NCBI GenBank assembly: GCA_030695565.1
Contig: JAUYRZ010000060.1
Location: forward strand, 1 to 64,000
Length of the DNA: 64,000 bases
From: Archangium sp.
Lineage (GTDB): Bacteria; Myxococcota; Myxococcia; Myxococcales; Myxococcaceae
Reading direction: 5' to 3'
How positions within the stretch are numbered: position 1 is the stretch's first letter; the number at the start of each line of letters is the position of its first letter. Below the pieces are notes generated by a model. It searched no databases. It worked only from the letters and a program-made list of their open reading frames with translations, and had not been told where the DNA came from. Shown piece by piece: positions 2,326 to 14,105 of this stretch. Position numbers and translations under genes: made by a program.

Positions 2326-2397
2326 TTCGCGCCAGGTGTATGGATCGTTCACATTCTTTTCCGGTTCGTGAGGAGGGCGTCGGGAGAGAATCTCTGC

Positions 2398-4059
2398 ATG
2401 GAACTGCTTCGGACGACCAGCACGGCCCCTCGCAACGAGCCCACCGCTGCCAAGGCCACTCCGCCCCCGCCCAGGCCCGCACCGGTCAAGACGACGGCGA
2501 TGAAGGCGGCCGCAGCGCGCGCGACTTCTTCGTTCAAGGCCGCGACGGCGCTCAGCCAGAAGGGCATCGACCTCATCAAGGAGTTCGAAGGTCTGCGGCT
2601 CAAGGCGTACCGCGATCCGGTCGGCGTGTGGACCATCGGGTACGGCCACACCGGCAGCGACGTGAAGCCGGGCCAGGTGATCAGCCAGACGCGCGCTGAG
2701 CAGCTGCTCAAAGGCGACACCGGCTGGGCGCAAGACGCGGTTCGCCGCAGCGTGAAGGTGCCGCTGAGCCAGGGTCAGTTCGATGCGCTCACCAGCTTCA
2801 CCTACAACCTCGGCGGGGGCGCGCTCGCGAGCTCCACGCTGGTCAAGAAGCTCAACGCCCGTGACTACGCCGGTGCGCAGAAGGAGTTCGCCCGCTGGGT
2901 GCACGCGGGTGGCCAGGTGCTCGCCGGTCTCGTTCGTCGCCGCGCCGCTGAAGCGAAGATGTTCGGCAACAAGGCGCCCAGCGCCGGCAGCACGCCTTCA
3001 CCCACGCCGACGCCTCCTCCTCCCAGCAGCCCCACTCGGAAGATCGACTACCGCGTGCGCGCGGGCGACACCTTCAGCGGCATCGCCGCGCGCAAGGGCA
3101 TGACCACCGCGCAGCTCAAGAAGATCAACCCGCAGATCCGCGACATCAACAAGATCAACGTGGGTCAGACGATCCACATCCGCCTCGCGAAGAAGGCGGC
3201 GGCTGCCACCGCGACCAAGACGTACACCGTCAAGTCGGGCGACACGTTCAGCGCCATCGCGGTGCGCAACGACTTGTCCATCGCGCAGCTCTCGAAGCTG
3301 AATCCGCAGGTTCGCGACATCAACAAGATCAACGTGGGGCAAAAGCTGACGCTCAGGGCGAAGGCTGCAGCGCCCCCGCAGACCAGGCCGCCCGCGGGCC
3401 CCGCGGCACCGGCACCGACCGTGCCCACGCAGTCGAACGCGGCGCTCAAGAACGGCGGCATTCCCAACACGTCGGGCATGTCGACGGCCAAACGGTTCGC
3501 GGTCTACGAGAAGTACATCAACCAGTTCGGTGACGCGCAGGCGAAGAAGGATCTCGCGTCGGGCAAGAAGGTCATCTTGAGCCTGCGCACCGACACCCCG
3601 ATGAGCTCGGGCCCGTACCGCGGCACCTACGACGATCGCATCGTGGTGCTGAGCAAGGACAGCAAGGGCCCTCACGTCACCGAGCTGCTCGCCAACACCG
3701 AGCCGAACCGCCGCTGGGCTGAACCTGCGAACCAGAGCAGCAAGCCCGTGGGCCGCCTCGCTGACGACCAGACCATCCGGTACCACAAGGCCTGGAGCAG
3801 CAAGTTCAACAACCACCTCCAGCCGTTCGGCACCCCCTACGCGCAGCGCGACCTCAACCGGAACTACAAGTTCGACAAGACCGACAAGAAGTACAACGGC
3901 GATTGGGGCGGGCAGCTGATGTACATCCACGGCGCCTGGACCACGGACACGGGCTCGCAAGGCTGCCAGACGATGGATGGAGGCCGCTTCGACACCTTCT
4001 GGCGCGCGCTCGGCGGACAGAACGACTTCAGCAACGTGCTGGTGAACGTCACCAAGTAG
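2398..4059 (+). CDS. GH24 lysozyme-like, LysM-containing peptidoglycan enzyme
   Basis: This 553-residue protein is predicted to cut or remodel peptidoglycan. Residues about 53-190 form a phage-lysozyme (GH24) domain. The catalytic E, D and T are visible in KEFEGLRLKAYRDP and TIGYGHT. Two LysM repeats follow, at about 216-261 and 276-320, each with YRVRAGDTFSGIA- or YTVKSGDTFSAIA-like sequence, joined by Pro-rich linkers. The last 190 residues are not a standard lysozyme part. They end with YIHGAWTTDTGSQGC, which resembles the His...Ser-x-Gly-Cys signature of L,D-transpeptidases. The ATG at 2398 follows GGGAGAG; an in-frame GTG lies at 2368. No classical signal peptide is seen. Confidence 0.85.
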   Translation: MELLRTTSTAPRNEPTAAKATPPPPRPAPVKTTAMKAAAARATSSFKAATALSQKGIDLIKEFEGLRLKAYRDPVGVWTIGYGHTGSDVKPGQVISQTRAEQLLKGDTGWAQDAVRRSVKVPLSQGQFDALTSFTYNLGGGALASSTLVKKLNARDYAGAQKEFARWVHAGGQVLAGLVRRRAAEAKMFGNKAPSAGSTPSPTPTPPPPSSPTRKIDYRVRAGDTFSGIAARKGMTTAQLKKINPQIRDINKINVGQTIHIRLAKKAAAATATKTYTVKSGDTFSAIAVRNDLSIAQLSKLNPQVRDINKINVGQKLTLRAKAAAPPQTRPPAGPAAPAPTVPTQSNAALKNGGIPNTSGMSTAKRFAVYEKYINQFGDAQAKKDLASGKKVILSLRTDTPMSSGPYRGTYDDRIVVLSKDSKGPHVTELLANTEPNRRWAEPANQSSKPVGRLADDQTIRYHKAWSSKFNNHLQPFGTPYAQRDLNRNYKFDKTDKKYNGDWGGQLMYIHGAWTTDTGSQGCQTMDGGRFDTFWRALGGQNDFSNVLVNVTK

Positions 4060-4069
4060 TCTGCGCCGC

Positions 4070-7000
4070 ATGGCGGAGGTGAAGTTCCAGAACAAGCGCT
4101 ACGACTGGGCCCCAGGTGAGTCGTTGCTCGAGTGTCTCGAGCGCAACGGCGAAGACATTCCCAACGCGTGCCGCTCGGGCGCATGTCACAGCTGCCTGGT
4201 GCGCGTGACCGATGGGCCCATCTCGCCCATCGCGCAGCTCGGCCTCAAAGAGGTGTGGAAGGACCAGCGCCTGTGTCTGTCCTGCGTCAGCACGGAGCCC
4301 GCCGACGTCACGGTGGCTCCGAGCGATCTCTCGGTGCAGGTGTCGGCCGAGGTGGTGGGCAAAGAATCACTGGGCCGCGACGTGGTGCGCCTCAAGCTCG
4401 CGCCGCGCGCGCCCTTCCCGTTTCGTGCGGGCCAGTTCGTCAACATCACCCGGCCCGATGGTCTGACACGTTCGTACTCGGTGGCCAGCATCGAGTCGGA
4501 TGGCGTGGTCGAGCTGCACGTGCGCGTGGTCGAAGGCGGGCGCATGAGCACGTGGGTGCGCGACACGCTCTCGCTCGGTCACGAGCTGTCGATGCGCGGG
4601 CCCACGGGTGACTGTCTGTATGTCGACGGCCGGCCCGACGCGCCGCTGCTCTTGATGGGCACGGGCACCGGGCTTGCGCCGCTCGTGGGCATCGCGCGTG
4701 ACGCCTTGTCGCGAAAACACCGCGGCTCCATCACCCTCGTGCACGGTGGCCGCGCGCCTGAAGATCTGTACCTCGACGTCGAGCTGCGCAGCATGGCGAA
4801 GAAGCACCCGAACTTTCGCTACCTGCCCACGCTCTCTCAGAGCGAGCCGGTACCGGGCACCACCAGCGGGCGCGTCGACAAGGTGGTCAGCGATCAGTTC
4901 AAGAGCCTGACCGGGTTCCGCGTGTTCCTCTGCGGAAGTCCTCCGATGGTGAAGGACGCGCGCGCGTTGGCGTACCGGCTGGGCGCTTCGCTCGATGACA
5001 TTCACGCCGACGCGTTCATCGCGGCGCCGCCTCCGAAGCCGAGCTCGAAAGAAGTGAAGGCGGTCAAGCGCACGGGTGTCTCCTTGCCCGTCTTGCCTGC
5101 TGCGCCGGTGAAGAAGCCGTTCCAGGTCAAACAAGGCACGCCGAAGCTGCAGAAGCTCCGCTTCGGAATCCAGGCGGCCGTGTTCGCCGGGTTCCTCGTG
5201 CAGGGGATCTTGTTCTACGTGGCGAAGTTCAAGCTCGTCGGCTCGATGTTGCCGTTCATGGCCTACGACTCACTCGGTCACCTGGTGGTCTCTTCCACGC
5301 TGGTGTTGTGGGCCACGTTGTTCGCCGCGGTGTTCGTCTTCGGCCGCTTCGCGTGCGGGTGGTTGTGCCCCATCGGGTTCGTGCAGGACCTCGGTGAGAA
5401 GACGCTCAAGTGGCTCAAGCTGCCCGTGCGAAAACCGATGCAGCAGAGCAACACCGTGCGCTTCGGCATGGCCGCGTTGGTGCTCGGTCACTTCGTGGTG
5501 ATGCCGGTGCTCGCGATGCCGGTGAAGCTCTGGCAATTCGATTGGTTGTTCCGCGAGCCGTGGCTGCTGGGCTTTCCGTTTCGCGCCGGCCTGTTCGTGC
5601 TCGACCTGGTGTTGTTGTTCGTCGTGCTCGGGCTGGTGCTCCCGTATTTCTTCGGGCCGCGGCCGTACTGCAAGCTCGTGTGTGAGACCGGGTATCTGTT
5701 CGATCTCACGTCGCGCTACAGCTTCGGGCGCATTCGCCGCAACGAAGGCTTCGAGCGCGACACCTGCTTGTCGTGTCAGCGCTGCACCAACATCTGCCCG
5801 CAGGCGATCAACGTGTTCGAAGAAGTGCACCTCTTCGATCGCGTGGTGAACTCGAACTGCATCAGCTGCATGCAGTGCGTGAACACGTGCCCGAACGACA
5901 CCATCGTGTACTCACTCAAGAAGAAGGCGTCTGACACGAGCCGGGTGACGGGCTACCTCGCCGCACTGCAGACGCGCGCGGAGGATCTGCCCCGCTACGT
6001 GCTCACCGGTGGCGGCGTGTTGATCGGCGCGTACTTCGGTTTTTCCGTGTTGCCGCCTTCGTACTTCCACACCTACGCGCTGTTCGCGTCACTCGGTGGG
6101 CTGTGCGGCTTTCTGCTGTACCGCGGGGCGACCCTCGCGTTGCCCTCGCAGTTCGAGCGGTGGTTCCCTGCGGGAGGACTCGCTTCGCAGGTGGAGAAGG
6201 AGCGTGCGGCGCGCATCGTTCCGCTGACCTCCGAGGAGCGTTTGTCGGGCCCTGCGCGCACGCCGCAGTCGCAGAAGAAGGTGATCGCCGCGGCCGCTGC
6301 GTTGATGGTGAGCGCGATCGCCTTGCTCATCGGCGTGTGGCGTCACGTGCCTTCGCGCATCGGCACGCTCGACGAGATCCCCCCGGGCATCGACACGGCC
6401 GCGGAACGTGAAGGCGCGAACGTGTTCGTGCTCGGTGTGCCCACGGAGACCTCGGCTGAACGCACGCAGCAGACCTATGCGGGCTTGAGCGACGTGTTGA
6501 AAGACGGCTTCACCAGCGACGCGCACATCTACCGCGCGGAGTCGTATGGCGCGCTCGCGCTGGCCGTGGAGAGCGGGAAAGTCGACGCGGCGTTCCTGCC
6601 CGGTGCATCGACCTACGCGTTGCTCAAGCGCACCAAGCTCGGGGTCGACGTGCTGGCGCAAGCGCAATTTCATGGGGCGACGACGTACTCGGGCGTGCTG
6701 GTGGCCCGCGAAGGTTTGAAGCAACGCCCGCTGCCCTCGAAACGCGGCCTCGCTGAGATCCGAGAAGCAGGCGCGCTCACCGAGGTGGAGACGAACAGCG
6801 AGGCGGAGCGGCTCTTCGGCACGCGCATCGCCTTCGTTCAGGTGGATTCGTTGTCGGGGTATCTCGCGCCCGTCGCGTGGCTGGGCCAGCACGGCGTGCG
6901 CATGACTGACATGGGCGAGGTGATCTTCGCCTCCACCCACACGCGCGCGCTCTCCTTGTTGCGCTCGGGTCGAGTCGACATCGCAGCGACCTTCGATCGC

Positions 7001-7264
7001 GTCCTGCTCGAGGCACAGGAAGAGGATCCGACCTTCAAGCCCGAGATCCTCGCGCGCTTCGATGGGCTGCCCAACGCGCTGCTGGTGACCCGACCCGGCT
7101 TGCCGCTCGAACGACGAGAGCAGTTGCTCGAGGTGCTCAACTCGGTGTTCGTCGATGGGTCGCAATCGCAGACCAAAGAAGCCCTGGAGACCGGAGCCGC
7201 GATGGATGGCCTGGTGCCTGCGTCGGTCGACGCCGTACGCGAAGTGGGAAAGTGGCTCGAATAG
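4070..7264 (+). CDS. ferredoxin/FNR/polyferredoxin/PhnD-like membrane fusion
   Basis: This 1064-residue protein looks like a self-contained trans-membrane electron conduit. Residues 1-85 are a plant-type [2Fe-2S] ferredoxin (CRSGACHSC near 33, RLCLSC near 67). Residues 90-325 are a ferredoxin reductase with RSYS for FAD and GTGTGLAP plus FLCGSPP for NAD(P). From about 366 come membrane helices of the NapH/NosR/CcoG type with CGWLCP and YCKLVC. Two [4Fe-4S] motifs (CLSCQRCTNICP near 565, CISCMQCVNTCP near 597) and more helices follow. Residues about 784-1064 resemble a periplasmic PhnD-type binding protein. The gene starts 10 bases after the GH24 gene. The electron acceptor and ligand are unknown. 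Confidence 0.85.
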   Translation: MAEVKFQNKRYDWAPGESLLECLERNGEDIPNACRSGACHSCLVRVTDGPISPIAQLGLKEVWKDQRLCLSCVSTEPADVTVAPSDLSVQVSAEVVGKESLGRDVVRLKLAPRAPFPFRAGQFVNITRPDGLTRSYSVASIESDGVVELHVRVVEGGRMSTWVRDTLSLGHELSMRGPTGDCLYVDGRPDAPLLLMGTGTGLAPLVGIARDALSRKHRGSITLVHGGRAPEDLYLDVELRSMAKKHPNFRYLPTLSQSEPVPGTTSGRVDKVVSDQFKSLTGFRVFLCGSPPMVKDARALAYRLGASLDDIHADAFIAAPPPKPSSKEVKAVKRTGVSLPVLPAAPVKKPFQVKQGTPKLQKLRFGIQAAVFAGFLVQGILFYVAKFKLVGSMLPFMAYDSLGHLVVSSTLVLWATLFAAVFVFGRFACGWLCPIGFVQDLGEKTLKWLKLPVRKPMQQSNTVRFGMAALVLGHFVVMPVLAMPVKLWQFDWLFREPWLLGFPFRAGLFVLDLVLLFVVLGLVLPYFFGPRPYCKLVCETGYLFDLTSRYSFGRIRRNEGFERDTCLSCQRCTNICPQAINVFEEVHLFDRVVNSNCISCMQCVNTCPNDTIVYSLKKKASDTSRVTGYLAALQTRAEDLPRYVLTGGGVLIGAYFGFSVLPPSYFHTYALFASLGGLCGFLLYRGATLALPSQFERWFPAGGLASQVEKERAARIVPLTSEERLSGPARTPQSQKKVIAAAAALMVSAIALLIGVWRHVPSRIGTLDEIPPGIDTAAEREGANVFVLGVPTETSAERTQQTYAGLSDVLKDGFTSDAHIYRAESYGALALAVESGKVDAAFLPGASTYALLKRTKLGVDVLAQAQFHGATTYSGVLVAREGLKQRPLPSKRGLAEIREAGALTEVETNSEAERLFGTRIAFVQVDSLSGYLAPVAWLGQHGVRMTDMGEVIFASTHTRALSLLRSGRVDIAATFDRVLLEAQEEDPTFKPEILARFDGLPNALLVTRPGLPLERREQLLEVLNSVFVDGSQSQTKEALETGAAMDGLVPASVDAVREVGKWLE

Positions 7265-7303: not shown

Positions 7304-10300
7304 TCAGCCACGTCCAAACCGCAAATACACGACGGGCAGCACGAGCAGGTTCAGCACCGTCGAGCTGATCAAACCGCCCAGCACCACCACCGCCATGGGG
7401 TGCTCAATCTCATGCCCCGGTGCATTGCCCGCCAACACGAGGGGCACCAGCGCCAATCCAGTCGCGCACGCCGTCATGAGAATGGGCCCCAGCCGCTCGA
7501 GGCTGCCGCGGCGCACCAGGCTCTCACCAAACGGCATGCCTTCCGCTTCCAGGTGACGGTAGTGCGTCACGAGCAGAATCCCGTTGCGCGCGGCGATGCC
7601 CAGCACGGTGACGAGGCCGACCATCGAACCAAGTGAGAGCACGCCTCCCGAAATCCACGCGCCGGCCGCGCCGCCCACCAACGCAAAGGGAAGACTGGCG
7701 GCGACGAGCGCGGTCCTCCGCACCGACTGAAGATCGAGGTAGAGCACCGCGAGCACCAACACCAGCGAGAGCAGCCCGAAACCCAGCAGCCGCTGCGTGG
7801 CGGCTTGCCGCTCCTTCCACTCACCGAGCACCTCGGCATGATGCGCGACGGGCCAGATCTCCTGCGCGACGATGGCCTCGACGGCCTTCGCGACGGTGCT
7901 CAAGTCTCCCGAGACGTCGATGGAGACGTCGATGCGCCGCGAGGTGCTCTCGTGGGGAATCTGATTGGGCGTCGGCTCGATGGTGAGCGAGCTCACCTCG
8001 CCCAGGGTCGCGCGGGTGCCCGCCGCTGACTCGACCTGCACCGCACGCAACGACGTGACGTCTTCGCGCAGCGCCTGCTCACCGCTCACCACCACGGGGA
8101 TGCTGCGGCCCTGCTCGATGAGCTCACCGACCCGTTGCCCCCGAACGAAGAGGTCGACCGACGCGCGGACGTCGGCTGCCAGAAAGCCCAGCGCCGCCGC
8201 TTCAGGCCTGATCGCCGAGCGCACCTCGGGCACGAGCGCTTGCTGCTCGACCTTCACCGAAGTCACGCCGGGAATGGTCTTGAGCTTGCCTGCGAGCGCC
8301 GCGGCACTTCCGCGAAGGGTCTCGAGGTCGGGCCCGAAGATGCGCACGACGACCGCGCCTGGCGCGCCCGTGAGCACCTCACGCACGCGCTCCCGCAGAT
8401 ACGTCTCGAGATCGCGGCGCAGCCCCGGGTACTTCGAGATCACCGCCAACACCTTCTTCGAGACGTCCTCGTGCGAGACGCCCTCCCCCACGTGGATCCA
8501 CAGCTCGCCGAAGTTCGGCCCGACGACTTCATCGGCGGCCTCTGCTCTTCCCAGGTGCGAGCCGAAGCTGGTGACCCCCTCGATCGCGCGCAGCTCGAGG
8601 CTCACCCGCTCGGTCGTGCGACGCAGCGCCGGGAGCGACGTGCCCGGCTGCGCGACCCAGTGCATGAGGAAGTCGTTCTCTTTGAACTCGGGAAGGAACG
8701 AGGTGCCCAGCAGCAGCGTGGCCACGCCCGCGAGCACCATCGAGGCGACACCACCAGCGATGACGGCGCGGGGGCGTTGCAGCAGCCGAGGGAGCATGAC
8801 CTCGTAGCGCCGGCTCAGCCAGGTGAGCACCGGAGAGTGCGTGGCCTCGAGGCTGGTGCCGGGCAGCAGGAGCATCGACAGCGCGGGCGTGACGGTGAGC
8901 GCGACGGCGAGTGAAGCGAACACGGCGAGCCCGTACGCGAGCGCGAGCGGCTGGAAGAACGCGCCCGAGAGGCCTCCGAGGAACCACACCGGGAGGAACA
9001 CGAGCATCACGATGACCGTCGCGTAGACCACCGCGCTGCGCACCTCGAGGGAGGCCTCGAGCACCACGGTCAACACGCTCCTCGGGCTCGGCAACGACGC
9101 GTTCTCGCGCAGCCGCCGATAGATGTTCTCCACGTCGATGATGGCGTCGTCGACCACCTCGCCGAGCGCGATCACCAGGCCCGCGAGGATCATGGTGTTG
9201 AGCGTGCCGCCGAGCGCCCGGAGCGCGATCAACGCCGCCGCCAGCGAGAGGGGAATGGCCAGAGAGGAGATGAGCGCGGTGCGCCAGTTCCACAAGAAGA
9301 GCCAGAGCACGCCGATGACCAACAGACAGCCAATCAGCAGCGCCTCCTCGAGGTTGCTGATGGAGCGTTCGATGAACTCAGCCGGGCGGAAGATGTGCGA
9401 ATCGAACACGACGCCGGGCATCGCGGGCGCCACCGCAGTGAGCACCTGATCGACTCTCTGGGTGATCTCCAGCGTGTTGCCCCACGGCTGTTTCTCGACG
9501 ATGAGCAGCAGACCCGGGACGTCGTTGATGACCGCGTCACCGATCGGCGGCGCGAACGTATCGCTCACCTTCGCCACGTCGTTGACGCGCACCACCGCGC
9601 CGTTCCGGCTCGCGATGGGCAGACTCGCCAGTTGTTCGAGCGTGCGCACGGGGGCCACGTGGGTCAGCGGCAGGCGTTGATTGGGGCCGTCGATGAAGCC
9701 ACCCGCGAGCGGCTGGGTGGCGCCTCGCACGCCACGCAGGAGCTCATCGATGGTCACGCCGTTGGCCTGCAGCCGGGCCACGTCGAGCTCGACCCGGTAC
9801 TCGCGTTCGCGTGAACCCCAGATCGCCACGTTGGCCACCCCGGGGATCGCCAGCAGCCTCGGCCGCAGCGTCCACCGCACCAGCTCGCTCAGCTCGACCT
9901 GGCTCGCCGTCTTCGAGGTGAGCCCGACCTTCAGCGCCCGGCTGGTCGACGAGAGCGGCGGCATCATCACCGGCGGTCTCGAGGCCGAAGGGAGCAACGC
10001 CATCGCGCGCGCGAGGCGCTCCTGCACCAGCTGACGTGCCACCAACAGCTCGACGCTCGGGTCGAACAACAACACCACCGACGAGAGCCCGAGCACCGAC
10101 TTCGAGCGCACCGTCTTGACGAAGGGTACGCCGGCCAGCGTGGTCTCCAGCGGCGTGGTGACCAGCTGCTCCACGTCGAGGCTGGAGAGCCCAGGCGCCT
10201 CGGTCTGCACCTCGACGAAGGGTGGCGCGAACTCGGGAAAGGCGTCGATGGGCGCGTCGCGGCCTGCGCGGAAGCCGAGCACCAGCAGCACGCCCGAGAG

Positions 10301-10354
10301 CAGCACCACCAGCACCCGGCCCTCGAGGCACCGTTGAATGAGCCACCGAATCAT
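7304..10354 (-). CDS. heavy-metal-type RND efflux permease (CzcA/CusA-like)
   Basis: This inner-membrane proton-driven pump of about 1016 residues is the engine of the tripartite exporter encoded with the next two genes upstream. It has the RND layout: one N-terminal helix (residues 12-30), a large periplasmic loop, a helix bundle, a second loop and a second bundle. [20 protein letters not shown] is typical of heavy-metal RND proteins. The fourth-helix motif reads [13 protein letters not shown]. That keeps the acidic relay residues but differs from the DFG form of CzcA and the AIG form of CusA, so the metal is uncertain. The ATG at 10354 overlaps the adaptor stop codon as ATGA. Confidence 0.93.
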
Positions 10355-11490
10355 CGGTCGGCTCCGAGCTCGAAGCCCCACAGCTCCGTCGCGCCCGCGG
10401 CGACGACTTCGGCCCCCGCGGCCGGGCCTCGCGCCAGCACCATGAGCTCTCCTTCTCGGCGGAGCACCTCGACGCGTTGCCTTCGGAAGCGGTGGGGCGC
10501 GGTTCGAACGAAGACCCACGCGCCCCCTTCGGCATCGCGCAGCACACTCGAGAACGGCACGCTCAGCCTGCTTTCCACAGCGTCGGTCTCGACCTGCACG
10601 ACCACCCGCTCTCCCGGCGACCAGGCGACCTCGGAGGGCAGCGCATAGAAGACGTCGACCGTCCCTCGTACTGGATCCGAAGAAGGCGGACCGTCGAGGG
10701 CCTGCAGCGCCACCCGCTCACCCTTGCCGAGTCGCTGCGCGAAGACCTGCGAGGCACCCGCGGTGCGAACCGCATCGCCCGAGCTCAGCGCGGTGCGGAT
10801 CCAGCGGCCCGCAGAGGCAATCTCCACCAGCGGAGCGCCGGCGGGCACCGACTGGCCGACAGCCACACGCACCGCGCGCAACACGCCGTCGGTTGGGCTC
10901 CTCAAGGCCAGCGAGACGTCAGCGTCGAGCGCGCCCGACGCCAGGGTGTTCAATCGCGATTGCGCCGAGGCCACCGAGGCCTGGGCCACCTGCTGCTGAG
11001 CGCGGGCCTCTTCGAAGGCGCGCACGCTGCCGCTGCGGTCATTCATCATCGACTCGGCGCGCTTGAGGCGGGCCTCGGCGAGCTGCAAGTCGGAGCTCGC
11101 GACGTCGAGATCTCGCTGCGCGCGCGCGCGCACGTCGCGATCGACCGTGGCCAGTGGCACGAGCGTCAGCAACACCTGGCCGCTCTTCACCACCGCCCCG
11201 GGTGGTAACAGCGTGCCCGCGATGCGCCCGCCGACCGGAGCGGCGAGCACCAGCTCCCGGCCCGCGGGCACCATCACCTCACCGCCCACGAAGAGCTGCG
11301 CTGGCCTCGGACCGAACTCGACGGGCGCCACGCTCAGCCCCAACGCACGCTCTGCCTCCTCGCTCAAGGTGATGGTGGTGAGGCCTTCGAGCGTGGTGCG
11401 CTCGAGCTTCGCCGCGGGTGTGCTCGGCGCCGGCGTGGCCGAGGGCGAACAGGCGGCCGTCATCAACAGACACACGAAGCATCTCGTCAT
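10351..11490 (-). CDS. RND efflux periplasmic adaptor subunit (HlyD/CzcB-like)
   Basis: This 379-residue lipoprotein links the RND pump to the outer-membrane channel. The N-terminus MTRCFVCLLMTAAC is a lipoprotein signal with its lipobox Cys near residue 14. It is followed by a low-complexity SPSATPAPSTPAA spacer. The barrel-sandwich half-motif GGRIAGTLLPPGAVVKSGQVLLTL and its partner DGVLRAVRVAVGQSVPAGAPL flank an alpha-helical hairpin rich in Ala, Arg and Gln. It overlaps the channel gene upstream and the pump gene downstream by four bases each, so the three are co-translated. Confidence 0.93.
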   Translation of the reverse strand: MTRCFVCLLMTAACSPSATPAPSTPAAKLERTTLEGLTTITLSEEAERALGLSVAPVEFGPRPAQLFVGGEVMVPAGRELVLAAPVGGRIAGTLLPPGAVVKSGQVLLTLVPLATVDRDVRARAQRDLDVASSDLQLAEARLKRAESMMNDRSGSVRAFEEARAQQQVAQASVASAQSRLNTLASGALDADVSLALRSPTDGVLRAVRVAVGQSVPAGAPLVEIASAGRWIRTALSSGDAVRTAGASQVFAQRLGKGERVALQALDGPPSSDPVRGTVDVFYALPSEVAWSPGERVVVQVETDAVESRLSVPFSSVLRDAEGGAWVFVRTAPHRFRRQRVEVLRREGELMVLARGPAAGAEVVAAGATELWGFELGADR

Positions 11491-12803
11491 GGCTCCTCCA
11501 GCAGCGTGCGGCCACCCACGGACCGCAGAAGTTCGGCTTCAGCGCGGCGCAGCTCGGCGTGCACCTCGAGCTCGCGCAGCTGCGCGTCGGTGGTGCGGCG
11601 CAGCGCTTCGACCACCACCAGGTAACTCTCAGAGCCGTTCTTGAAGGACGACGCCGCCGCTTCGCCCGCGTGCTCCAGGTAGCCGGTGATTCGGTGAGCG
11701 GCTTCTTTCGAGGTCTTCGCGCGAGCCAGCGCTTCGTGGGCGAGCAACACGTCTTGAAGCACTGCCAATCGTGTGGCCGCGTATCGATGCGAGGCCCGCA
11801 TCACCGCGGCATCCGCACGGCCGATACCGCCCTGGTTCTGCGAGAAGATCGGAAGCTCAGCCTGAAGCCCGGGGCTGAAGGTCATGGCGAGGCTTCCCAC
11901 CGGGGCCTGCCCATCGATGCTCAGGAAGAGCGAGAAGACCCGGCTGCGCTCCCAGCTCGCCCGGGCGGCGGCGGCATTGACCTGGAGCGCAGCTGCACTG
12001 AGCTCGGGGCGCTGCGCCAGGGCCCGCGTCTGCAACATCGTGAGGTCGGCCTTCACGTCGAGCGCGAGCGCCGTGGAGTTCACCGGAGGCAACGTCGCCC
12101 ACGGCGCGCCCAGCACCGTCAGCAGGCGCGACTGGCTCATGGTCAGCTCGTGCCGTGCACGCTGCAGCGCGTCTTCGGCGAGCGCCCACTCGGCACGCAC
12201 CTGGTCGGCCTCTGCAGGCGCGATGTCTCCAGAGGCGGCACGCGCGTCAGCGAGCTCCACTGCCTGGGCCCACGCGGCCGAGGCGCGGCCCAGCACGACG
12301 ACGCGATCCTGGGCGAGCACGACGTCGGCGTGCGTCGACCTCGCAGCACGTTCGGTGTCGAGCACCACCTGCACCAGCGCGTCGGCCGTCGCCTCGAGCT
12401 CGAAGGTCGCGGCCGAGATGCGAGAGGGCATCTGCCAGATCGACTCGAGGGGAATGAAGAGCACCAGCGCGAGCTGCCGGGGGTCGAGCGGCGCGAGCAG
12501 GTTGTTGAGACGGGGGTTGGCCGGCCGCTTCGCTTCGTCGAGCGAGGCCAGGGTCGACTCCAGCTGGGTGAGCTCCGCGAAGAGGGTGGGGCTGTGCCAC
12601 AGCGCCACGGCCGCTGCTTCGTCGGCGGTCAGGCCGTCTTCGAGCTTCACACCCGGCGCGACGCCGGCATCCGCCGAGCCCGACCCCAGCGCGAGGGCCG
12701 TGCGGCTCTTCACCGATTGAGCGAGCCACTCGCGCGAGCGGGGCGGCCCGGCGCACCCCAGCAGGGTGCAGAGGGAAAGCGTGAGGGCGAGGGAGCGCAC
12801 CAC
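11487..12803 (-). CDS. TolC-family outer-membrane efflux lipoprotein (CzcC-like)
   Basis: This 438-residue outer-membrane channel completes the metal-type RND exporter. A lipoprotein signal (LSLCTLLGCAGPP) puts the lipobox Cys near residue 17. The rest is the usual long-helix TolC repeat structure, including RLNNLLAPLDPRQLAL and repeated Ala/Arg/Glu coiled segments. The start is a GTG at 12803. It is the first gene of the three-gene efflux operon, and the histidine kinase gene ends 43 bases upstream on the same strand. Read-through from the regulators is therefore possible, though no promoter was identified. Confidence 0.9.
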   Translation of the reverse strand: MVRSLALTLSLCTLLGCAGPPRSREWLAQSVKSRTALALGSGSADAGVAPGVKLEDGLTADEAAAVALWHSPTLFAELTQLESTLASLDEAKRPANPRLNNLLAPLDPRQLALVLFIPLESIWQMPSRISAATFELEATADALVQVVLDTERAARSTHADVVLAQDRVVVLGRASAAWAQAVELADARAASGDIAPAEADQVRAEWALAEDALQRARHELTMSQSRLLTVLGAPWATLPPVNSTALALDVKADLTMLQTRALAQRPELSAAALQVNAAAARASWERSRVFSLFLSIDGQAPVGSLAMTFSPGLQAELPIFSQNQGGIGRADAAVMRASHRYAATRLAVLQDVLLAHEALARAKTSKEAAHRITGYLEHAGEAAASSFKNGSESYLVVVEALRRTTDAQLRELEVHAELRRAEAELLRSVGGRTLLEEP

Positions 12804-12845
12804 GCCTTGTCGCAGCCGAAGCTGAATGAACGCCGAACGGCGCGT

Positions 12846-14105
12846 TCAGGTCGGGAAACGCACCGTGAGCCGAGCGCCCGCGGCGCCGTCCTCGAAAGCG
12901 GCGGTGCCCCCGTGCTGACGCGCGACGTGCGCGATCAACGCGAGGCCCAGCCCGTGCCCCGCGATGCGCGCGCTGCGAGCGGCCTGGCCCCGATAGAGCG
13001 GCTCGAACACGCGTACACGTTCGTCCAGCGGCACGCCCGGCCCGTCGTCATCAAACTGGAGCCCGTCTTCGAGGAGCCGAGCCGTCACGCGGTGACCGAA
13101 CTTGAGCCCGTTGGAGAGCGCGTTGGAGACCATGCTGGAGAGCAGCGCGCTGTCGCCGCGCAACGAAACGTCTCCCGTGAGCTCGAGGACAACCCGCTCC
13201 CTCTCCGCGGCGCTGAGCCCCGCGACGGTGTCCTCCAACACATCGCGCAGGGAGACCAGCTCCGTCGCGGCGCCTCCGCCCGGGGTGGCCAGCACCAACA
13301 GCCGCTCGACCAGGAGGCTCAGCCGGGTGACGGTTGCGCGCAACCGCCCCACCACCGCCGGCGAAGGGGCCTCGTGGTGCAGCAGGTCCAGCTCGCCCTG
13401 GATGGTGCTCAGGGGTGTTCGCAGCTCGTGAGCCGCATCGCTGGCGAAGCGGGTCGCTTGCGTCAGGGCCTCGTCGACGCGCCGGAGCAGCACCTCGATG
13501 GTGGCGCGCAACGCATCGACCTCCGAGACGTTCGAGAGAGGCCCCAGTTCGATGTGGGTGATGGCAGCGGCATCCAACCGGGCGAGCCGGGTCTGCAGCT
13601 CGGCCAGCGGCGCCACCACGCTCTTCGCGAGGGGCCGGCTCACCAGGAAGGCGCCGGCGGCCACCAACAGCGAGGCGACGAGGGCCGCCAGCAACAACTC
13701 AGCGATCGATGCGTGAGCGCCCCCTGCGACGACGACGAGGGGCGCCGCCTCGGTGCTGCAGGCGCGGAAGTCACCGGTCAGCAGCGCGCAGGCGCCGGGC
13801 GGGAGAAAGGTGATGCGGGTGTCGCCCGCCAGCCGCTGGCCAGAGAGATCGAAGAGCGCAAACGCGAGGCCCATGTGCGTCGTCTCGGCGTGTTCATCCG
13901 CGACGATCGCTTCGAGGCGAGCCTGCGCTCCGGGTTCCATCAACTCGGCGCCGAGCACCACCGCGGCTTCGTGCAGCCGGCGATCTTCTGCCCGTTGGAG
14001 CAACACGGCCGCGAGCCCGCAGGTGATCGCCGCGGTGAGCAGCGCGGCTGTCACGGCCAACCCGAGGCTGCCCAGCGCTGCGCGGTTGACGAAGCTCTGG
14101 CTCAT
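12846..14105 (-). CDS. sensor histidine kinase, likely for the adjacent efflux system
   Basis: This 419-residue membrane kinase has a first helix at about 12-35, a periplasmic sensor segment and a second helix ending near 165, followed by a HAMP-like linker. The HisKA H-box is ASDAAHELRTPLS. The ATP-binding part shows an N-box (SNALSNGLKFG), a G1-like DDDGPGVP and a G2-like GHGLGLALI. It starts inside the response-regulator stop codon (ATGA at 14102-14105). The family and context fit CzcS/CopS-like metal sensing; the ligand is inferred, not seen. Confidence 0.93.
   Translation of the reverse strand: MSQSFVNRAALGSLGLAVTAALLTAAITCGLAAVLLQRAEDRRLHEAAVVLGAELMEPGAQARLEAIVADEHAETTHMGLAFALFDLSGQRLAGDTRITFLPPGACALLTGDFRACSTEAAPLVVVAGGAHASIAELLLAALVASLLVAAGAFLVSRPLAKSVVAPLAELQTRLARLDAAAITHIELGPLSNVSEVDALRATIEVLLRRVDEALTQATRFASDAAHELRTPLSTIQGELDLLHHEAPSPAVVGRLRATVTRLSLLVERLLVLATPGGGAATELVSLRDVLEDTVAGLSAAERERVVLELTGDVSLRGDSALLSSMVSNALSNGLKFGHRVTARLLEDGLQFDDDGPGVPLDERVRVFEPLYRGQAARSARIAGHGLGLALIAHVARQHGGTAAFEDGAAGARLTVRFPT

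Follow-up and report, generated by a model that had tools for sequence, protein, structure and literature searches.

One gene of an Archangium sp. genome (8.5 Mb) encodes an NAD(P)H-linked flavin and 2Fe-2S reductase, a NapH-type membrane polyferredoxin, and a PhnD-type binding domain in a single 1064-residue chain, and this architecture is intact in six of 195 Myxococcota genomes (the source, G002, G003, G010, G023, and G052). The complete gene occupies positions 4070–7264 on the + strand of the window, a 64,000-nucleotide stretch of contig JAUYRZ010000060.1 (GenBank assembly GCA_030695565.1), and runs from an ATG as one open frame of 1064 codons; features of the fusion given below lie on the same strand. 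We tentatively read the product, at a little short of an even chance, as a self-contained transmembrane NAD(P)H oxidoreductase whose electron flow is gated by an oxyanion ligand, or which presents such a ligand. NapH-like proteins, according to PMC8238504, perform transmembrane electron transfer in many bacteria, and for most of them the reaction is obscure.

Pfam matches followed one another along the chain in the order Fer2 (aa 8–74), FAD_binding_6 (aa 93–184), NAD_binding_1 (aa 195–298), Fer4_5 (aa 410–448), 4Fe-4S diclusters (aa 562–612), and Phosphonate-bd (aa 789–1052), the first three together making up a reductase of aa 1–318. This order within one frame bears out the one-chain layout proposed in an earlier note on this DNA, and the profile searches suggested there, of each segment and of the full architecture, recovered the modules by Pfam and the architecture in the six genomes above. 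The same note had named two ways in which the layout might fail, a C-terminus unlike any binding protein and a frameshift artefact joining two genes; the C-terminus matches PhnD, and the same frame recurs in the five other genomes. PF12974, NAD_binding_1, FAD_binding_6, Fer4_5, and Fer2 were matched by all six members, PF12974 at E 1e-5 or better in each. The best NCBIfam matches were to reductases (PRK05713, BenC), then NapH, and then phosphonate-binding proteins, each scoring under its curated cut-off among the matches listed (best 25); PHROGs gave no match.

Identity to the source protein was 90% in G003, 79% in G002, 73% in G023, 67% in G010, and 50% in G052. Among 40 genomes, 12 (source included) gave a match, which in five (the source, G002, G003, G010, and G023) was the full fusion; G052, which belongs to another family, was one of the six of 195 Myxococcota genomes matched by a membrane-plus-PhnD profile, and its frame also contains the reductase. 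The fusion is under purifying selection, strong in all folded modules against the nearest relative, with dN/dS of 0.09–0.11 for each of Fer2, FAD/NAD, membrane, and PhnD; the cytoplasmic loop preceding helix 7 gave 0.62. The ratio climbed as relatives became more distant, reaching at most 0.73 (PhnD) and 0.45 (membrane module) against G052, values from a simple counting method that is unreliable at that distance. Of the folded modules, PhnD evolves fastest (37% identity to G052 vs. 64% for the membrane module), so the ligand may differ between members. Module identities rank nearly alike across the five relatives, which fits a single inherited unit. Frameshift or mis-assembly is ruled out by the intact continuous frame in six genomes together with the strong purifying selection.

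The genome search covered Myxococcota and Pseudomonadota; among the latter, searched with no positive control, 0 of 398 genomes matched at E 1e-25 (at most two candidates per genome among the matches listed). A contig-level genome search returned four loci, three full-length and one of the reductase only, all from Myxococcaceae. Twenty-one plasmid records matched, none covering 80%, and a scan of viral contigs with the membrane module gave no relative. The source genome also carries a decayed copy of the helix-7-plus-PhnD part only (L024 9020–9986; G000:C123, about 67.0–68.0 kb): 999 bp from the last third of the gene, at 74.7% identity and with internal stops, starting at codon 733, close to a module boundary.

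The reductase has the plant-type 2Fe-2S cysteines and the FAD and NAD motifs of Fer2-FAD-NAD reductases. Its ferredoxin domain (4091–4291; PF00111, E 4.5e-10) contains C34, C39, C42, and C72, all four invariant in the six members; the FAD-binding domain (4346–4621; PF00970, E 6.8e-13) has RSYS at residue 134, and the NAD(P)-binding domain (4652–4963; PF00175, E 4.6e-19) has GTGTG at 197 and CGSP at 288. The 2Fe-2S motif, RSYS, and CGSP are kept in all six sequences, and the NAD motif is GTGTG in all but G052, which has GTGLA. The closest stand-alone relatives (43–44% identity; G012, G019, and G021) each adjoin a truncated globin gene, with an Rrf2-type regulator gene also adjoining in G012 and G019 (Pfam was run on the G019 copy only), and in G001 a Fer2-FAD-NAD reductase and a truncated globin form a single chain (L032 9945–11483). 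Such kinship with a globin reductase would suit a role of the fusion in nitric-oxide or nitrosative-stress defence, to which we give little credence: the fusion has no such neighbors, and the likeness speaks to the origin of a module and not to its present role. Truncated globins, found in 11 of 12 genomes tested, occur in carriers and non-carriers alike and so do not discriminate.

Reductases of this type were also noted at individual loci. At two of them (L029 6456–8283 and L030 6576–8437) a truncated globin, a Fer2-FAD-NAD reductase, and an Rrf2-type regulator stand in a row near genes reading as ATP synthase, perhaps an NO-response cassette. In two proteins of ∼770 aa (L033 6406–8709 and L034 784–3090) the reductase is followed or preceded in the chain by a membrane part with many histidine boxes, which we take to resemble alkane hydroxylase.

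The membrane module (aa 356–700; 5135–6169) is of NapH type on the basis of PF12801, NCBIfam NapH profiles under their curated cut-offs (NF007013, 71.3 vs. 234 bits; TIGR02163, 70.5 vs. 213.05 bits), hydropathy, and low-confidence model helices. With PF12801 come the two 4Fe-4S motifs of NapH/NosR-type proteins, both CxxCxxCxxxCP and present in all six members (aa 566–577, 5765–5800; aa 597–608, 5858–5893). Of the two CX3CP motifs of that type, the first is kept as CGWLCP in all six (aa 429–434; 5354–5371); the second (aa 534–539; 5669–5686) is CKLVCE in five members and CKMVCE in one, with E in all six at the position where NapH/NosR types have P. Helices lie near aa 367–385, 405–423, 467–485, 506–524, 643–661, and 665–690, and two histidines in or near them, H404 and H474, are invariant among the members. 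A seventh transmembrane helix (aa 738–756, 6281–6337; hydropathy 2.67, model helix 735–757) leads to the outer domain.

With the reductase and 4Fe-4S motifs inside, seven helices would place the PhnD-type domain in the periplasm, as the earlier note had supposed. Hydropathy, helix positions, and charge support this placement: Lys+Arg to Asp+Glu stands at 7:2, 15:12, and 8:5 in the presumed cytoplasmic loops and at 2:1 and 3:2 in the short loops presumed to be outer; for the outer domain it is 31:42. Hydropathy gave six clear helices, and helix 665–690 was added by the low-confidence model; the parity hangs on this weakly hydrophobic sixth helix, and if it does not span the membrane the PhnD-type domain is inside. 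The AlphaFold model of the whole chain is poor (mean pLDDT 47.8), so fold and pocket are argued from sequence. Tat export was considered and rejected, as by eye an RR pair shortly before helix 7 occurs in G010 only and is not followed by what we take to be the Tat consensus.

The C-terminal domain (aa 789–1052; 6434–7225) is PhnD-like, as had been claimed: PF12974 scored 100.3 bits against a cut-off of 27 (E 1.5e-28), the closest solved relatives are HtxB and other phosphite/phosphonate binding proteins (6ght, E 1.8e-9), and the pocket residues align. Through the HtxB alignment, the oxyanion-binding motif falls at S927-L928-S929 (6848–6856), with predicted partners Y826 (6545–6547), Y873 (6686–6688), and H957 (6938–6940), roles taken from PMC5700983 and PMC5908839. 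The latter describes oxyanion-holding residues common to PhnD and AioX, in AioX S161, S163, H192, Y88, and Y131, which map to S927, S929, H957, Y826, and Y873 of the fusion; these five are invariant in all six members, and Leu (Val in G052) replaces the central Thr of the STS motif.

The cap differs from that of phosphonate and phosphite binders, where it is an acid or Tyr. Position 1003 is A, S, or T (D in G052), position 1004 is L, V, or I, so that the PtxB-type capping Tyr is absent by alignment through HtxB, and F975 also replaces a polar PhnD cap residue. This cap mapping is our reading of the HtxB alignment, backed by PND kept there in four of five source-genome paralogs. The AioX pocket residue Cys106 is absent as well; five of six outer domains have no Cys, and that of G052 has one at 931, beside the Ser motif. 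Since the pocket five are kept, the cap is replaced, and the AioX Cys is missing, an oxyanion head is a likely part of the ligand, specificity for phosphite or arsenite appears unlikely, and the substituent may be larger or less polar. As separate observations, in one plasmid match (H19) a gene for a binding protein adjoins one for phosphonate dehydrogenase, in keeping with the phosphite kinship of the fold but uninformative about the fusion, and three PhnD-type proteins of the source genome (L047 1450–2259, L049 1438–2232, and L050 1309–2163) show by eye no obvious signal peptide, judged in frames as read with start codons unconfirmed, a lack that is odd for binding proteins.

The outer domain contains no Fe-S motif and, in any of the six members, no CxxCH or ApbE-type motif, with the last two defined as we take them to be, and a covalent flavin or heme relay was rejected on that ground. 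The five invariant pocket residues, the missing CxxCH and ApbE-type motifs, and the lack of Cys in five of six fit ligand binding over relay, and with no redox motif seen the domain looks like a ligand-binding domain and not a redox relay.

The domain might instead bind FMN or another phosphorylated redox cofactor non-covalently and in this way stand in for the covalent FMN domain seen in NosR and PceC types: the oxyanion pocket is kept, its altered cap may fit a larger, less polar group, and ApbE was found in five of the six carriers (74 of 195 genomes overall; p 0.03, uncorrected and confounded by kinship). We consider this quite unlikely, because the ApbE-type motif occurs in none of the six, the source genome gave no ApbE match at E 1e-10, no carrier has an FMN_bind protein, and known PhnD-type pockets are small and buried, as far as PMC5700983 describes them. 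That the domain is simply an anchored solute-binding protein feeding a separate ABC transporter, with the redox fusion incidental, would agree with the naming of the family in Pfam and NCBIfam as transporter binding proteins and with the six further PF12974 matches in the source genome; by eye, however, no such transporter genes stand beside the fusion in the six genomes, and the fusion has been retained across distant Myxococcota, which makes this reading very improbable.

Conserved gene partners such as periplasmic reductases, which the earlier note had suggested looking for in homologs, did not appear: by eye, the gene lists of the six fusion neighborhoods share no gene, in a view that ends early in three of them (contigs of 12–13 kb in G002 and G010, and a gene 1.8 kb from the contig end in G003). 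With no conserved neighbor, the protein probably acts by itself or with a partner encoded elsewhere. In the window, a phage-type lysozyme gene with two LysM domains (2368–4059) ends 10 bases before the fusion ATG; by eye, no such gene adjoins the fusion in the other five genomes. On the other side, a row of consecutive genes (7304–14105, − strand) converges on the fusion, matched by Pfam as an RND efflux pump, HlyD-type adaptor, outer membrane efflux protein, and histidine kinase.

Nitrous oxide reductase (NosZ) or another periplasmic reductase could be such an unlinked partner, with the PhnD-type domain serving as a docking or donor domain that hands it electrons. NosZ was found in 39 of 195 genomes, including four of the six carriers vs. 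35 of 189 non-carriers (Fisher p 0.015, uncorrected and confounded by kinship). No carrier genome has an FMN_bind domain at E 1e-5, and hence none has a recognizable NosR; the only other PF12801 gene of the source genome lies in a region reading by eye as cbb3-oxidase. We nevertheless hold a NosZ donor to be improbable. The association is largely due to kinship, since all six sampled genomes of the source genus have NosZ and three of them the fusion; two carriers lack NosZ; and the fusion is not beside nosZ, the two lying ∼290 kb apart on the same contig in G003. In the source genome a c-type cytochrome gene, an obvious donor, adjoins nosZ on a contig with no PF12801 match, and the outer domain shows no motif for a relay cofactor.

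In the oxidoreductase that we favor, NAD(P)H would hand electrons to FAD, from which they would move through the 2Fe-2S cluster to the two cytoplasmic 4Fe-4S clusters and then cross the NapH-type helices toward the periplasm or a membrane quinone. The PhnD-type domain, periplasmic in the predicted topology, is expected to bind an oxyanion-headed ligand between its two lobes, and lobe closing, carried by helix 7, may control the electron flow; alternatively, the membrane redox site may have the ligand or an acceptor presented to it by the domain. Motifs for Fe-S, CX3C, and FAD, kept in all six members, speak for an electron chain, and the lack of a conserved partner gene fits a protein working alone. 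Counted against it are the fast divergence of the PhnD module, the variable cap position 1003, the second CX3CP without its proline, and a model too weak to show coupling, and electrons could flow inward instead of outward. In a narrower form, which we regard as doubtful, the protein would be a ligand-gated electron exporter in which oxyanion binding outside directly switches the NAD(P)H-driven Fe-S wire of the same chain, without kinase or transcription. Since the chain brings along both an NAD(P)H donor and a binding domain, the protein could be produced and assayed in isolation, with the conserved pocket pointing to the ligand class to try first; if the ligand controls the flow, electron export would be under a direct chemical switch.

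A literature search on the combined architecture and its parts, at the level of titles and abstract openings, returned no description of a PhnD-polyferredoxin fusion. Among known systems, NosR and RdhC/PceC resemble the fusion in their NapH-type helices, in their CX3C motifs, and in having a domain on the outside, and NosR and NapH have its 4Fe-4S motifs. NosR and RdhC/PceC carry an FMN domain, whereas the fusion has no PF04205 match at E 0.1 and no ApbE-type motif, and has an NAD(P)H reductase before the membrane module. The suggestion that a PhnD-like fold takes the place of the periplasmic FMN domain of NosR does not hold literally: in PceC (PMC5928378) the FMN domain precedes the membrane module, and in NapH-like systems linked to flavinylation it is mostly an N-terminal extracytosolic domain (PMC8238504), whereas in the fusion the N-terminal place is taken by the reductase, and the PhnD-type domain, which shows no visible redox cofactor site, comes after three more helices at the opposite end.

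The NapGH-fusion polyferredoxin of MLMS-1, as far as PMC5449189 describes it, likewise has a NapH module and a C-terminal periplasmic domain in one chain, the latter predicted to bind 4Fe-4S and Tat-targeted, in contrast to the fusion, which has neither motif. One-chain NQR/RNF-like proteins combine a cytosolic NAD-binding and a membrane electron-transfer domain, as does the fusion, but their membrane domain is of NqrB/RnfD and not NapH type, and no PhnD domain is named for them in PMC8238504, the main text of which does not contain the word phosphonate. The dioxygenase-type reductases BenC, MmoC, and PRK05713 share the Fer2-FAD-NAD order, and only in the fusion is the reductase joined to a membrane polyferredoxin. 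The AioX/ArxX/ArrX sensors and the PhnD/PtxB/HtxB binding proteins have the five PhnD and AioX oxyanion-pocket residues in common with the fusion, which is without the AioX Cys106, but are proteins in their own right that work with a kinase or an ABC transporter. What is new here is that an NAD(P)H donor and a binding domain are both built into one NapH-like transmembrane electron-transfer chain.
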